Positions 1,790 to 6,981 of a DNA stretch of 61,784 bases are shown piece after piece. The notes under the pieces are model-generated. The model saw only the letters and a program-made list of their open reading frames with translations, had not been told where the DNA came from and searched no databases. Source of the stretch: Colwellia sp. (GTDB lineage: Bacteria; Pseudomonadota; Gammaproteobacteria; Enterobacterales; Alteromonadaceae); assembly GCA_016765685.1 (NCBI GenBank), contig JAESPR010000124.1, forward strand, positions 1-61,784, given 5' to 3'. Within the stretch, counting starts at the first letter, position 1, and the number at the start of each line of letters is the position of its first letter. The translations under genes were made by a program, and so were the position numbers.

Positions 1790-4700
1790 TTAAATAGTTT
1801 CTGCATATTCATCAATATCATTTAAGGCTATACGAGTACTTTTAAGTAACGTATTTATTTTATTTAAGCTGCTCGGAATTTCACTGCCCGTTAATAGTTT
1901 TGACCATTTTGTGCATAAAAATTGTAACTCTTGGGCCGAAAGTATTTTGGCATTCAACGCTAATGTTGAGATAGACAATTGCGCTTGTTCGATATTTTTT
2001 GTTTTGATTGCATCAATTAAGCTATCGAGTTGCTGATGATTATCTTGGCTGTAGTCATCAAGCATAAACAGCGCTAACTCAACGGATCCTTGGTGTTGTA
2101 AATATTGAGTAAAGTCGAACACCGCCGCGCTATTATTTTCCGTGAGCACGGTGGCAACTTCGGTAATAACAAGTTCATCTAAACTCTCTGAGAAATCAGC
2201 GGTTAAGGCAAGCGCATCATTTTCAGTTCGACGTTCACCCGCGATAGGTTGCGACTGTTTTAACCAAGGTGCTAAAGCATCAGCCAGCTCAGTTAAGCTA
2301 CTGTCTTTAACAAGTTGACCAATATGCCAATGCTTAAAACATTCATGATCTTCTATCTGAGGGATAAGCTCTGTTAAACTAAATACCGCCACATCAACCA
2401 CGGGTTTGCTGGTCATTTCAACTAAGGCGGTTGCAGTAAACTCGGTAATAAGTAAACTATATAGCCCTGTTTGCCAACACGCATGTTGAGCCGCTTCGTG
2501 AGCAACGACTTGCACCTGTAAACCTAACCATTGCAATAAGCGCTGCAAATTTTGATACTGCTGAGGGGCATTAACCGCCAGCAATACCGAAAGTCCACTT
2601 TCAACATATTGCTTATTAGTTATTTTTTCACCCGACAATAATTGATTACTGGCATTATCGCTGGCTAGCAGCGCGTTAATATTACCTAAAAAACTGTATT
2701 TACATAACAGCGGCTCTGCTTGTGAATAAAAGCCAAAATGCTGATAACTTAGCAAATTAGATTGAAGTATCATCAATTTGGGTTGTAATGAGTGAGGCAA
2801 GTTTTTTAGTTGTTGAGTAATTAAATCAAAGCTACCCAATGCCATATCACTAGCCACCACCAAGATATCAATGGGATGACGGTTAAGATATTTTGCGGTC
2901 AGTTGTTGTTCGAAACTATCTATTCGGGCCAAGCGTTCAAATTTTCCCTTGGCTGATAGCACCATATTTTCAACCCGTTCAGCGAGCATACTGTTATTTG
3001 ACAATAACATTAGTTTGGTGTTTTTTAAGCTGACGTTATTGGTACTCTCAGCGGCACCTGCAATAGCTAAGGGTAATTCAAAGCTAAGCTGATAACCGTC
3101 ATCGTTAAGCTGAGCGGCAATATTTTCACCATGTTGCTTGGCAAATAAAAGAGTGAAGATATCAATTAACGGTGTTATAGCAACATCTGTCGACTGTGAT
3201 TTCAGCAATTGGGTTATTAAATCAGGTAAAACGTCTGATGGTTGGTTTTTTACGTGCGCTACAAAGTGCACTAACTGCTGACCGGTGCTTTTTTCTTGTA
3301 ATTGCAGCTGTAAATGCAATTGTGCCTGATGGCAATTGTTTAAGGAGATATCGATAAACAGATTCATTAATTGTTGAAACAAACGATAATCAATTTTTGC
3401 CGATGTTAACAGTTGCTCGTCACAACTAATAAACAACTGATTATCGTGAATTTGTTGCTTTTTTTGTTGATTAAATAAAATGGCATGAATTTCATCCTCC
3501 AAATTTATATCGCACAGTTTTAATACTGATGTTTCAGCTTTTAGAGTCAATGCTAAATGAAATTGGGTTATTTGTTGATACAACTCAGTTAGCTTAACAT
3601 TATCGCCTACTGCGTTGTGTTTAAACGCAGCCCCTTGTTGCTGTTGTATCAAAAACAAGGTTGCCTTTGCTAAAGTCTGATAGCGCTGTAATTCACTACT
3701 CAAGTGGGCTGCACTTTGTGCTTTCGAGGCTAACGCTTGCTGCTCATTGTCTATTGCTAGTTGGGCAACTATTTGTTTTTGTTGTGCGATCAATTGTACC
3801 GTAGTTTGGTATTGCTCAGTTAATAGCTGAAACTGTTGTTCGTTATGTGCCGGTTTAATAATGCTTTGCAGCTGCTGTAATATTTGCTCGGTTTCCGCGC
3901 AGTTAGCAGGCACAATAGCTTCACCTTGGTTTTGTATATTACGCTGAATTATTTCGACACCTTGTTGCGCAGACATTTTAATTTGCTCACGCAACTTCCA
4001 GATTAAGTAAAAGAAAAACAACAATAAAAGGCTAATAACAAAGATAATCATCAAGGTAATATTTTGATTAGACAAGGGCATACCAATGTCGGCTAAAATT
4101 GCTTTAATATGGGGTGCTTTGCTAACTTTTGAGTGTTGATAAGGCGTGAGTAACAACTGACTAATTTGTTGCCGTTGAGTTTTTAAATCATGCTGATAAT
4201 CTTGCGCTAGACGAAGGTAACCTTGCCATTTTGCTAGCGCTCTTTGCTCGGTTAACACAATTTTTTCGAAAGCCGTTAATTGTTGATGCACATCAGCCAG
4301 AGCTTTAATTCCATCACCAGCACTTAACTGCTTATTTAACACAAATACGTGTTCAACTCGCAAGCGTAATTGTTCAAAAGTAATCAGGGGAGTGTGCATA
4401 GTTAACTGCTCAAAATTTACTAATATTTCAGCTAACAAGGTTTTAAATTGTTGTAAATTATTCAGTTGCAAAACCGCGTTTGCATAAGCATTAGCTCGAC
4501 TAAAAGTGACTCTATCTTTGGCTTGATCTGCTTGCAGTTGTTTATTCAGAATTTTTTGCTGGCTAAGTTTTTTATCTATAATAGGGGTTATTGAAAATAA
4601 CATCAGCTGCAGTTGAATAATACTACTTTGCCTTAACTGCTGGTTACGGGTGTGGCTGTCTTGAATACGTGAAACAATATCTTGTGCTAATTGGTTGTCA

Positions 4701-5095
4701 TGTAACCATTGTTGAAAACGTTGTCCATTGGCACTGTTTAACTGTAATAACTGACGGTTAATGTTCAGTAACTGGGTGTGTAATTCAACAAAATGCTCGG
4801 CATTAGCAACACTCAATAAACTCGTCACAAGCTTTTGCGCATTTTGTAGCGCATTAATTTGCTTCAGCTGTTGTGTTAATGGCACTAACTGAGTTGCTAC
4901 TAATATTTTATTTTGGCTATAGTGCTCGACAAATAAGAGTGTCGTTAACCCCAAAATTGCCACGAGAGTTAGTAATAACGCCACTAATTTATGAGTGAAC
5001 TGTTGGTATAGCGCTGGGAGCTTAATTGGTTTCACTGGCTGATGTGCTGTTTTTTCAGTTTCAGTCGAGTCAGCAAGCTCGTTAGTATCGCTCAT
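1790..5095 (-). CDS. Degenerate hybrid histidine kinase-like membrane protein
   Basis: A protein of 1101 residues with the layout of a TorS/BarA-type hybrid sensor kinase. It has a TM helix at about 36-58, a periplasmic glutamine-rich helical region, a TM helix at about 345-367, a coiled coil, a kinase-like core at about 455-675, two receiver-like folds (about 690-810 and 833-945), and a C-terminal HPt-like bundle (about 992-1080). Every catalytic position I can align is changed. The H-box reads LSSELQ with Ser467 where His belongs, and the N-box reads NLFIDISLNN with Asp582 for Asn. There is no DxGxG box, neither receiver has the phosphoacceptor Asp, and the HPt reads ISTLAL with Ser1043 for His. 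It may be a pseudokinase or scaffold. It lies convergent with queG, 21 bp away. Confidence 0.65.
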   Translation of the reverse strand: MSDTNELADSTETEKTAHQPVKPIKLPALYQQFTHKLVALLLTLVAILGLTTLLFVEHYSQNKILVATQLVPLTQQLKQINALQNAQKLVTSLLSVANAEHFVELHTQLLNINRQLLQLNSANGQRFQQWLHDNQLAQDIVSRIQDSHTRNQQLRQSSIIQLQLMLFSITPIIDKKLSQQKILNKQLQADQAKDRVTFSRANAYANAVLQLNNLQQFKTLLAEILVNFEQLTMHTPLITFEQLRLRVEHVFVLNKQLSAGDGIKALADVHQQLTAFEKIVLTEQRALAKWQGYLRLAQDYQHDLKTQRQQISQLLLTPYQHSKVSKAPHIKAILADIGMPLSNQNITLMIIFVISLLLLFFFYLIWKLREQIKMSAQQGVEIIQRNIQNQGEAIVPANCAETEQILQQLQSIIKPAHNEQQFQLLTEQYQTTVQLIAQQKQIVAQLAIDNEQQALASKAQSAAHLSSELQRYQTLAKATLFLIQQQQGAAFKHNAVGDNVKLTELYQQITQFHLALTLKAETSVLKLCDINLEDEIHAILFNQQKKQQIHDNQLFISCDEQLLTSAKIDYRLFQQLMNLFIDISLNNCHQAQLHLQLQLQEKSTGQQLVHFVAHVKNQPSDVLPDLITQLLKSQSTDVAITPLIDIFTLLFAKQHGENIAAQLNDDGYQLSFELPLAIAGAAESTNNVSLKNTKLMLLSNNSMLAERVENMVLSAKGKFERLARIDSFEQQLTAKYLNRHPIDILVVASDMALGSFDLITQQLKNLPHSLQPKLMILQSNLLSYQHFGFYSQAEPLLCKYSFLGNINALLASDNASNQLLSGEKITNKQYVESGLSVLLAVNAPQQYQNLQRLLQWLGLQVQVVAHEAAQHACWQTGLYSLLITEFTATALVEMTSKPVVDVAVFSLTELIPQIEDHECFKHWHIGQLVKDSSLTELADALAPWLKQSQPIAGERRTENDALALTADFSESLDELVITEVATVLTENNSAAVFDFTQYLQHQGSVELALFMLDDYSQDNHQQLDSLIDAIKTKNIEQAQLSISTLALNAKILSAQELQFLCTKWSKLLTGSEIPSSLNKINTLLKSTRIALNDIDEYAETI

Positions 5096-5177: not shown

Positions 5178-5663
5178 TTAGCGCTTTTTATTCACCCATG
5201 CCCATTGCATTTCACATTCAATAGGCTGTTGTCCTGATTCATCGGTGATCGTTACCAGTACCATAACATCGCCTTTTTCTTGTTGTTCTATTTGAGTGAT
5301 TTGCTCAGTTGTTAACTTGGCAATCGCGGTTAAATTACCTTGCATTCTACGTTGATAATTAACTTTCATTGCTTTTAATAAAGGTAATTTACTATCTGGG
5401 ACATTCATGCCAAAGACGATTCCCGTTGCTGATTCAGCTAATACCGCTGCTGCAATAGCGTGAATACCACCAATATGATTTTGCACTGCTTTTTTATTCT
5501 TTAAAAACAAGCGAGTTTGTTGATGAGTTATTTGCTCAATTTTCACCCCTGTTGTGCCGGCAAATTTAACCTTAGTAGTAAATAGTGTTGTTAATAAAAA
5601 TGACTGCATGAACTGCGGTGCTTTATTTACCTTGTTGACGAACGTACTAAATTTATTTGCCAT
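5178..5663 (-). CDS. DUF4442 hotdog-fold protein (thioesterase-like)
   Basis: Encodes 161 residues that fit the DUF4442/PaaI-type hotdog family. A central helix segment reads NHIGGIHAIAAAVLAE, matching the N-H-x-G-x-x-H helix that lines the active site of acyl-CoA thioesterases. It is followed by strands through MKVNYQRRMQGNLTAIAKL and a closing QWAWVNKK strand. No signal peptide or TM helix is present, so it is probably cytoplasmic. Thioesterase activity on acyl-CoA is inferred from the fold; the substrate cannot be told. It lies 82 bp upstream of the degenerate kinase on the same strand, and the two might be co-transcribed. Confidence 0.7.
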   Translation of the reverse strand: MANKFSTFVNKVNKAPQFMQSFLLTTLFTTKVKFAGTTGVKIEQITHQQTRLFLKNKKAVQNHIGGIHAIAAAVLAESATGIVFGMNVPDSKLPLLKAMKVNYQRRMQGNLTAIAKLTTEQITQIEQQEKGDVMVLVTITDESGQQPIECEMQWAWVNKKR

Positions 5664-5916: not shown

Positions 5917-6981
5917 ATGACTATTACTACTTTAGAATTAAGCCAGCAGCAGAGTTATCAACAAACATCTAAGCAACGTCAAAAAGTCACCTTGCTGGCT
6001 CCGGCGAACATTGCACCAGATAATATGAATGTGAACCAGTCATTACTCCTATCATCGAGCAACCTCATTAGTTCAAGAGCCAATCAAATATCACCAACAT
6101 CAAGTGAAATTAATAACGTCACTTACGAGAAACCACTGTCGATAAAACTGCAATTGATGACGCTGATTTTAGAGCGATTTATTGGACGAGAGTTAGATAT
6201 TAGTGCTTTTAGCTATTTTACTAACAATGAAAAAGTTAATAATAATTTTGAATTAATTAACCAAACATTTTCTGCAATAAACGCTGAGCTAGTGACTATT
6301 GGTGAGCAATCATTTCAACAAGGTGATTTATTATCAGTAGAACAATGGACAACTTCTAAACAACAGCTCAGCTATCAAATACAAGGCAAATTCAACATTA
6401 ATGATCAAGCATTATCACTTAATTATAATTTTACTTTATCAAGTGAACGCACTAGTTATAGTAAAATTGAAATGTCTGCTGCAGCGTTGAAAGATCCATT
6501 AATAGTACAGTTTGGCGCACAAAGTTTAGGAAAAATAACGGGACAAAAAAACTTTCTTATTAACCAAGATAATACGTTAGATAAGTTACCTATTTTTTCC
6601 GGCGATGTCGGTTATTTAGTTTTTGATCAAAACAATAATCAGCAAGCCGATGATGGCAGTGAATTATTTGGCCCTCAAACAGGACAAGGTTTTGCTGAAT
6701 TAGCGCGGTTAGATAGCAACAATAATGGATTTATTGATGCTGAAGATAAAGACTTTGAACGGTTATACCTATGGCAGCCAAATGCTGATAATAGTCAAAC
6801 TGAGCGATGGCTATCGTTGCAGGAAGCAAAAATACAAGCGATTAGTCTCTCTGCAATTAGCACTCCCTTTGATTTTTATGATCAACAAGGGCAATTACAG
6901 GCACAATTGCGTCAATCCAGTTTTGCCATTAGCGACGAGGGATATGGACGTGGCGTACATCAAGTAGATGTACGTATTTAA
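5917..6981 (+). CDS. EF-hand-like calcium-binding protein, unknown function
   Basis: A protein of 354 residues with no signal peptide and a low-complexity Gln/Ser N-terminus. The C-terminal third carries two acidic loops of EF-hand or dockerin type: DQNNNQQADDGSELFG near 231-246, then LDSNNNGFIDAEDKDFERL near 257-275, followed by LYLW and a region reading QAISLSAISTPF. This D-x-N-x-N-G-x-I-D pattern is shared by a family of proteobacterial proteins with VCBS- or dockerin-like calcium sites. The N-terminal part matches nothing I know. The start at 5917 is the first ATG after a 250-bp gap. Function is unknown; calcium binding is inferred from the loops. Confidence 0.6.
   Translation: MTITTLELSQQQSYQQTSKQRQKVTLLAPANIAPDNMNVNQSLLLSSSNLISSRANQISPTSSEINNVTYEKPLSIKLQLMTLILERFIGRELDISAFSYFTNNEKVNNNFELINQTFSAINAELVTIGEQSFQQGDLLSVEQWTTSKQQLSYQIQGKFNINDQALSLNYNFTLSSERTSYSKIEMSAAALKDPLIVQFGAQSLGKITGQKNFLINQDNTLDKLPIFSGDVGYLVFDQNNNQQADDGSELFGPQTGQGFAELARLDSNNNGFIDAEDKDFERLYLWQPNADNSQTERWLSLQEAKIQAISLSAISTPFDFYDQQGQLQAQLRQSSFAISDEGYGRGVHQVDVRI

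Follow-up and report, generated by a model that had tools for sequence, protein, structure and literature searches.

The stretch of DNA analysed here ("the window": 61,784 nucleotides of contig JAESPR010000124.1, Colwellia sp.) carries at positions 1790-5095 of its minus strand a complete gene for a protein of 1101 amino acids (aa). From its open reading frame (ORF), its orthologues and AlphaFold2 models, we propose that it encodes a hybrid sensor of the TorS type that is dead with respect to phosphate transfer. An earlier note on the same DNA had described, by eye, a kinase of TorS/BarA domain order with all phosphotransfer residues apparently replaced and a reading frame intact over 3.3 kb; the frame does run from its ATG to the stop codon without interruption.

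Library searches gave hardly any sign of such a protein. In the window protein Pfam found no kinase, receiver or HPt, its sole match being DUF6288, under the cut-off; NCBIfam returned zero matches, and phmmer against PDB sequences only seven antibody chains (E 0.12 or worse). Because these searches were blank, the by-eye alignment required independent proof. The HPt parts of relatives are faintly visible to Pfam in 7 of 16 proteins (E 0.0008-0.06), and one orthologue (G434) clears the curated Pfam Hpt cut-off in a genome search (28.6 versus 24.6 bits). When family profiles were run by hmmsearch against 16 live kinases, nothing was found at E 10, so the kinship is visible only by comparison of profiles with profiles and of structures.

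The AlphaFold2 model of the whole protein (33 aligned sequences) has a mean pLDDT of 79, and its top Foldseek matches in the PDB are ShkA (E 3e-13), GacS, ZraS and RetS, with DivL lower. VIA-align superimposes the protein on GacS with Z 19.7 (root-mean-square deviation, rmsd, 10.4; 272 aligned), its DHp and CA part (aa 464-676) on RetS with Z 17.8 (rmsd 3.2, 188 aligned) and aa 990-1101 on HptB with Z 14.9 (rmsd 2.0, 108 aligned), the four-helix HPt fold being present. The part between the membrane helices (aa 70-323) matches the TorS sensor domain 3o1i (Z 15.7, rmsd 6.2, 248 aligned); since the sensors of McpS and PilJ score close to TorS (Z 13.6-15.4), and helical bundles easily reach middling-to-high Z, the sensor belongs to that helical class and not specifically to TorS.

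When the family was aligned, profile against profile, with 15 live hybrid kinases taken from seven of the order's genomes, the match was colinear over aa 500-1072 (E 7e-9, probability 95.8). In separate comparisons of each domain with real ones, likewise from seven genomes of the order, HPt (E 1.1e-9), REC2 (4.6e-7) and CA (2.9e-5) are recognized. REC1 is weak by profile alone (E 0.009; controls: 0.04 and 0.087 across domains, 0.082 for REC1 against REC2), and was settled as a receiver fold by a second AlphaFold2 model, of aa 684-950 (pLDDT 89.6), in which the fragment aa 692-814 aligns with receiver domains at Z up to 12.9 (rmsd 2.5, 114 aligned) and with other folds at 9.4 or less. Foldseek with the REC1-REC2 fragment was weak: ShkA at 3.5e-5, then an unrelated CoA ligase at 3.5e-4. 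Three hybrid kinases that were first taken for TorS as the closest live kinases had to be given up, because their profile match was insignificant (E 0.037, probability 1.4) and only the broader live-kinase set matched.

According to these models, the domain order is TM - TorS-like sensor - TM - DHp - CA - REC1 - REC2 - HPt, where TM stands for a transmembrane helix. The order read by eye is thereby supported by models, fold searches and profile alignment alike, and the DHp, CA, receiver and HPt folds, whose absence the earlier note had named as fatal to it, were all found. The features are:

1790..5095, minus strand: complete gene, putative phospho-dead TorS-type hybrid sensor, 1101 aa (ORF, orthologues, AlphaFold2)
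4925..4996, minus strand: TM helix 1, aa 34-57, approximate boundaries estimated from a hydrophobic stretch and the AlphaFold2 helix 34-95
4070..4924, minus strand: periplasmic all-helical TorS-like sensor domain, aa 58-342 (VIA-align with TorS sensor 3o1i)
3998..4069, minus strand: TM helix 2, aa 343-366, approximate boundaries estimated from a hydrophobic stretch and the AlphaFold2 helix 343-388
3539..3835, minus strand: DHp-like helical hairpin, aa 421-519, with no conserved His (AlphaFold2 helices 421-492 and 499-519; GacS, RetS and DivL matches; column counts)
3056..3523, minus strand: CA/HATPase-like domain, aa 525-680, without N and G boxes (profile-profile E 2.9e-5; RetS Z 17.8; patterns)
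2651..3022, minus strand: REC1-like domain, aa 692-815 (AlphaFold2 fragment, pLDDT 89.6; receivers Z 12.9; weak profile, E 0.009)
2261..2602, minus strand: REC2-like domain, aa 832-945 (profile-profile with real receivers, E 4.6e-7)
1793..2128, minus strand: HPt-like four-helix domain, aa 990-1101 (HptB Z 14.9; profile-profile E 1.1e-9; G434 orthologue over the Pfam cut-off)

Phosphotransfer residues

Sites were mapped onto the window protein through profile alignments, and columns were counted over the members long enough for each domain: 72 for HPt, 61 for DHp, 60 for CA, 60 for REC2 and 38 for REC1. The full set of 74 members leaves out L105 (an unread weak match) and L106 (an ordinary kinase), and a stop-riddled copy from genome G005 enters no alignment. 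The positions concerned are:

3695..3697, minus strand: Ser467, the H-box residue of the earlier note, with an alternative at about aa 473-478 (His in 2/61 relatives)
3347..3349, minus strand: Ile583, column of an N-box Asn (profile alignments; 0/60 Asn)
2852..2854, minus strand: Ala748, probable column of the REC1 acceptor Asp (weak profile alignment; Asp in 2/38)
2441..2443, minus strand: Glu885, column of the REC2 acceptor Asp, T-E-F signature (column count, n=60)
1967..1969, minus strand: Ser1043, column of the HPt phospho-His (profile alignments; 0/72 His)

Profile alignments put the HPt phospho-His exactly at Ser1043, as had been read by eye; none of the 72 domains has His there, and Q, A, K, E, S, I, N and others are found instead. 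The N-box Asn had been placed at Asp582, one column off: the Asns of this box fall on Leu579 and Ile583, and at these columns Asn occurs in none of the 60 CA-like domains. The G box was rightly called missing, for its pattern matches 0 of 74 members, and the H, N and HPt box patterns match none either. On the 16 live kinases, the H-box pattern finds 16 of 16 and a slightly looser HPt pattern 4; the latter is thus insensitive, and it is the column counts that carry the HPt evidence.

Both receivers had been said to lack the acceptor Asp. For REC1, whose acceptor column in the weak alignment is probably A748, the counts agree (A 13, T 10, G 6, S 5, D 2, N 1, H 1; n=38); two residues further on, at D750, Asp occurs in 22 of 38. 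For REC2 the statement has to be amended, as column 885 holds E 46, D 10, Q 2, M 1 and N 1 (n=60) and the preceding residue is Thr or Ser in 52: with 56 of 60 residues acidic, the acceptor site is, on the column counts, acidic and not simply lost. The acidic pair of REC2 is replaced by Val841/Asn842, the Thr column is Leu907, and Lys stands at column 930 in 8 of 60 only.

The H-box His is less firmly placed. Ser467, as given by the earlier note, is possible, and the ranges taken from structures also permit about 473-478, near A478; His is rare at column 467 (2 of 61) and at column 478 (1 of 61) alike. The two proteins with His at the Ser467 column (L011 of G003 and L012 of G023) have it in the H-box-like strings SHELH and NHELQ, and the N-box Asn and the HPt His are gone in both. 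Ser467 and Ser1043 were considered as substitute acceptors and rejected, because both columns vary. The earlier note had proposed checking the conservation of Ser467, Asp582 and Ser1043, and none of the three turned out to be conserved as a substitute (columns 467 and 1043 by count, 582 as seen in the alignment). As far as alignments can place them, the phosphotransfer residues are absent across the family members examined.

Selection, syntenic slot and natural deletions

For the whole gene, the ratio of nonsynonymous to synonymous substitutions (dN/dS) is 0.17-0.37 in pairs within the genus. Values for single domains were pooled from 8 of the 12 listed pairs, four being dropped for overlap with others or near saturation. 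They are lowest in the HPt-like (0.19) and CA-like (0.19) domains, REC2 (0.20) and the periplasmic part (0.24), followed by the N-terminus with TM1 (0.26), REC1 (0.28), the TM2-linker (0.31) and the DHp-like domain (0.31), with 0.45 in the inter-domain linker. In a clade with 975-aa proteins, the codons pooled under REC1 encode linker; REC1 itself has 0.23, 0.24 and 0.26 in the three pairs that the long clade contributes to the pool. Such ratios indicate that the protein is under purifying selection, dead domains included. They are far from the value near 1 that the earlier note had named as contrary to its view that the gene is not simply decaying, and this view also agrees with matches in 36 of 36 other genomes examined of the genus, the exceptions being the copies in G005 and G009 described below. 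For the neighbours, dN/dS is 0.04-0.10 in queG (6 of the 8 pairs) and 0.04-0.23 in the DUF4442 gene (5 of 8).

In the GTDB family, 91 of 295 genomes from 22 of 52 genera have a match at E 0.001. Five of these genomes, from the genera g28, g35 and g42, match weakly (E 4.6e-9 or worse) and possibly have ordinary kinases; when they are set aside, about 19 genera remain, the window's own included. Matches in the order beyond the family are weak (5 genomes at E 2.7e-7 to 1.4e-4, and in another search 7 genomes at E 9.5e-9 to 9.6e-4), and they were not accepted as members, since the four read are ordinary hybrid kinases (L106 by Pfam, L232-L234 by motif). Open frames of 945-1219 aa occur in 57 of the 74 members gathered (58 with the frameshifted L047). 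In G027 the gene is split across contig ends.

The gene occupies a slot, orn-[DUF4442]-gene-queG, that is shared by Colwellia and about 18 other genera, and in all 58 family loci read it adjoins queG, DUF4442, orn, rsgA or psd. A live orthologue was sought in this slot in 20 stretches from gene-less genomes (9 spanning orn to queG, 11 from one side only): no ORF of at least 100 aa fits the family profile at E 10, and the larger ORFs resemble, by eye, TonB receptors, acetolactate-synthase-like proteins and GGDEF-EAL proteins. No live ancestor of the family was found among the gene-less slots or the order-level matches. Next to the gene the window contains:

5178..5663, minus strand: DUF4442 hotdog-fold gene, immediately upstream, co-directional, with a gap of 82 bp (Pfam PF14539, E 1.5e-30; neighbour at many orthologous loci)
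5917-6981, plus strand: ORF of 354 aa between the DUF4442 gene and orn, with no Pfam family (best E 0.014, an RNA polymerase model, under the cut-off)

At many loci of the 975-aa Colwellia clade (L050:3030-3551, L031, L037 and others), a small gene of about 170-187 aa lies between the orthologue and queG; its product has hydrophobic segments and perhaps a coiled coil, and the two that were scanned show no Pfam family above the cut-off.

Proteins of the window's clade have two receivers and about 1100 aa, and those of its sister clade in the genus are without REC1 and have about 975 aa. The entire core (DHp, CA and both receivers) is missing in 13 of 71 rows of a tree made from sensor and HPt columns, from which L014, L047 and L103 were excluded for a contig end or a frameshift; what remains there is a protein of 525-611 aa made up of the sensor, the TM helices and the HPt-like domain. 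Core loss amounts to four changes on the tree, three of them forced by well-supported branches, although the root is not fixed, so that either direction of change is conceivable in principle, and several branches, that of L100 among them, are long and of unsure position. The short form of G018, which has an internal deletion and is nested among long forms in a group with full support, is a plain deletion. Those short forms that could be placed occupy the orn-queG slot too; their dN/dS is 0.02-0.03 in g148 at dS 1.4-1.7, which is near saturation, and 0.24-0.25 for G018 against its nearest relatives. The HPt-like domain is kept in long, middle and short forms. In this natural deletion series (two receivers, one, none, no kinase), the shared remainder marks the part worth studying.

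HPt surface, REC-TPR neighbour and possible mode of action

Conservation of the HPt-like domain was compared with that of 16 live HPts from seven genomes. The columns of the His face (1039, 1040, 1043, 1044, 1046, 1047, 1050) were picked from HPt structures. Their mean conservation is 0.28 in the family versus 0.56 in live HPts, that of the segment 1002-1015 is 0.78 versus 0.50, and the overall means are alike (0.50 and 0.49). The difference of face minus segment was at most -0.32 in 200 subsamples of 16 family sequences, versus +0.06 in live HPts. The drop of the one together with the rise of the other suggests that the dead HPt has swapped one conserved surface for another, which lies within the following signature:

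2051..2104, minus strand: family signature, aa 998-1015 (YLQHQGSVELALFMLDDY), best-conserved stretch of the HPt-like domain by conservation means and mostly retained in short forms

Tyr998, Gln1002, Gly1003, Glu1006, Ala1008, Met1011 and Tyr1015 are almost invariant in the longer forms. So are Gly1003, Glu1006, Ala1008, Met1011 and Tyr1015 in the short forms, which mostly have Phe998, Tyr1001 and His1002.

At ten loci of other genera, a gene for a REC-TPR protein lies downstream of the orthologue in the same direction. Its receiver is recognized by Pfam (E 4e-10) and retains the acidic pair and the Lys, while in all 10 copies read Ser or Ala replaces the acceptor Asp:

L072:556-2208, L073, L078, L079, L081, L083, L086, L087, L088, L110: REC-TPR copies read, adjacent to the orthologue

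When REC-TPR genes are counted at E 1e-100 and linkage is judged by coordinates, both genes are present in 44 genomes and adjacent in 30, from six genera. Distant REC-TPR paralogues have Asp, Gly, Ala or Ser at the acceptor column. A second paralogue, of Colwellia and relatives (L177, L178, L179, L181, L182, L183, L185), has Gly there (LLGYDL or FLGYDL); dead receivers thus recur in REC-TPR proteins.

That the core is repeatedly absent and the His face little conserved argues that the essential output is probably not the ordinary relay interface. We hypothesize that a TorS-type hybrid histidine kinase without phosphate chemistry has been retained as a putative contact-based, phosphate-free signalling protein, a reading that in our judgement could equally well prove right or wrong. 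The loss of phosphate chemistry would date back to a common ancestor within the bacterial family's own line of descent. The helical bundle in the periplasm might sense a ligand or a binding partner, and the signal would cross the membrane and alter how the dead HPt at the C-terminus is displayed. The working surface of this HPt would no longer be the His face but the newly conserved 998-1015, in contact with a partner. The dead kinase and receivers may then serve as an optional spacer or a second contact site. Where it is present, the neighbouring REC-TPR protein, with Ser or Ala in place of its own acceptor Asp, is predicted to be the best candidate partner; no orthologue of it was found in Colwellia. 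Carried further, this would be a phosphorelay without phosphate: TM sensor, dead HPt and dead REC-TPR receiver would form a chain derived from a His-Asp relay and working by conformational contact only, with the HPt surface moved to 998-1015 and the short forms as its minimal version. This extended scheme we regard as conceivable but rather unlikely.

Several observations weigh against a contact-based role. Constraint is moderate, with dN/dS two to six times that of the housekeeping neighbour queG. The copy in G005 (L045, C57:13825-16724) is riddled with stops, which shows that one lineage at least can do without the gene, and that in G009 is frameshifted, perhaps by a sequencing error. The conservation comparison is limited by the fact that live HPts mix paralogues and the family is one orthologous set, and that the face columns were our own choice; moreover, a conserved 998-1015 can reflect packing on another domain of the same chain. 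As for REC-TPR, in 14 of the 44 genomes with both genes the two are unlinked, and of the 30 linked pairs 14 come from the single genus g118; the gene occurs in 131 of 295 family genomes, many of them without the dead kinase, and at E 1e-100 it is absent from 47 of the 91 genomes with a family match, including all 16 of the window's genus in that set. An obligate partnership was therefore rejected, REC-TPR being wider in distribution than the dead-kinase gene and sometimes unlinked, which makes it a candidate partner in no more than part of the family.

The main rival is a modulator resembling RetS or DivL, in which the dead DHp-CA core would join a live hybrid kinase in mixed dimers or complexes and inhibit or reshape it. 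The nearest solved folds of the core include these two proteins, both of them modulators of other kinases according to PMC12189002; the CA-like domain is constrained equally to the HPt-like one (dN/dS 0.19), and the same genome carries live hybrid kinases (L216, L217). Fold ranking is silent on function, however, and several lineages without DHp, CA and receivers keep the remainder constrained, so modulation through the core is not the sole output in all members. We take this explanation to be possible but doubtful, and it could hold additionally for the long forms. The earlier note had itself seen the protein as a scaffold or an inhibitor of a real relay; the relay architecture, the lost residues and the absence of decay on which it built stand, and the role as such stays putative.

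Another thought is that the dead HPt is a decoy, which would dock on a live response regulator by the ordinary interface between HPt and receiver and so keep that receiver from being phosphorylated. Of the domain matches listed, the HPt fold has the lowest rmsd (2.0 A to HptB), and it is present in forms of every length, but the docking face around S1043, at 0.28 versus 0.56 in real HPts, is poorly conserved, which disfavours a decoy and makes us think it improbable. Slow decay of a leftover protein that drifts and sheds domains would explain the G005 pseudogene, the G009 frameshift, the repeated core absence and a dN/dS above that of queG. We nevertheless consider a relic quite improbable in view of the 57 members, out of 74, whose frames are open over 945-1219 aa, domain dN/dS of 0.19-0.31, a slot kept over about 19 genera, the nearly invariant residues of the HPt segment and the constraint on short forms. 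Finally, phosphate or another modification might be carried at a less usual site, such as Glu885/Thr884, Asn1048, His655 or His1001. The acidic column 885 with its preceding Thr or Ser would suit such hidden chemistry, as would His655, found in 46 of 60 CA-like domains, and His1001, found in 36 of 72 HPt-like domains. Yet there is no acidic pair for Mg2+ and there are no ATP-binding boxes, the HPt-His and possible H-box columns vary freely, and His655 is presumably part of the HG turn common in CA domains; this explanation seems to us very improbable indeed.

Comparison with known systems

TorS has the order sensor-TM-DHp-CA-REC-HPt. With TorS and BarA(GacS) the window protein shares the domain order, a core like that of GacS and a profile colinear with live hybrid kinases; its helical sensor scores well against that of TorS and almost as well against those of PilJ and McpS. 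It differs in that the phosphate sites are lost, that no HAMP was found in it by Pfam library search, and that receivers number two (window form), one (sister clade) or none (short forms). In the window protein REC and HPt domains lie downstream of CA, as in a TorS-type sensor, and the working residues of the H1-D1-H2 relay are missing; of the marks of an active histidine kinase, the DHp and CA folds are present but a conserved phospho-His, N-box Asn and glycine boxes are not. A kinase fold that has lost its phospho-His and ATP residues and is maintained by selection makes the protein a pseudo-histidine kinase, and REC1 and REC2, receiver folds without acceptor chemistry, are pseudo-receivers. 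RcsD of Enterobacteria is not known to have kinase activity of its own. It resembles the window protein as a membrane protein with a periplasmic region and a C-terminal HPt, whose His842 takes part in a relay, according to PMC7418988; compared by this description, the family differs in the absence of the HPt His from 72 of 72 members.

Pseudo-histidine kinases and pseudo-receivers are already known (PMC12632262, PMC12189002). DivL (Caulobacter) and RetS (Pseudomonas) share the histidine kinase fold with the window protein, as the fold matches showed. Both act on other kinases and signal by partner contact, DivL being a pseudo-histidine kinase (PMC12189002). In the family described here the N and G boxes, the receivers and the HPt are dead too, and several lineages lack the core. 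The pseudo-receivers of ShkA and CikA share with REC1 and REC2 a receiver fold without acceptor chemistry (the CikA pseudo-receiver, PsR, aligns with REC1 at Z 11.4, rmsd 2.9, 110 aligned), but they belong to otherwise live kinases, whereas here all modules are pseudo; roles of PsR domains are described in PMC12632262. Like TPR response regulators, the neighbouring REC-TPR protein has a Pfam-recognized receiver with acidic pair and Lys, and it differs from them by Ser or Ala at the acceptor Asp.

In the papers reached by our literature search, so far as their text was available, there is no description of a relay whose modules are all dead and which many genera nevertheless conserve, with repeated trimming to sensor plus dead HPt. 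The survey in PMC12632262 puts the share of domains that lack the His at 0.9% for HisKA and likewise 0.9% for Hpt, and that of receivers lacking the Asp at 2.0%, all of them library-recognized domains. Pseudo-kinases and pseudo-receivers have mostly been described singly, domain by domain. Here a complete relay is dead over about 19 genera and almost invisible to Pfam, a hint that dead relay domains may be undercounted when they are tallied through libraries. Beside the systems above, such a family opens the testable question of which parts of a phosphorelay stay useful once the phosphate is gone.

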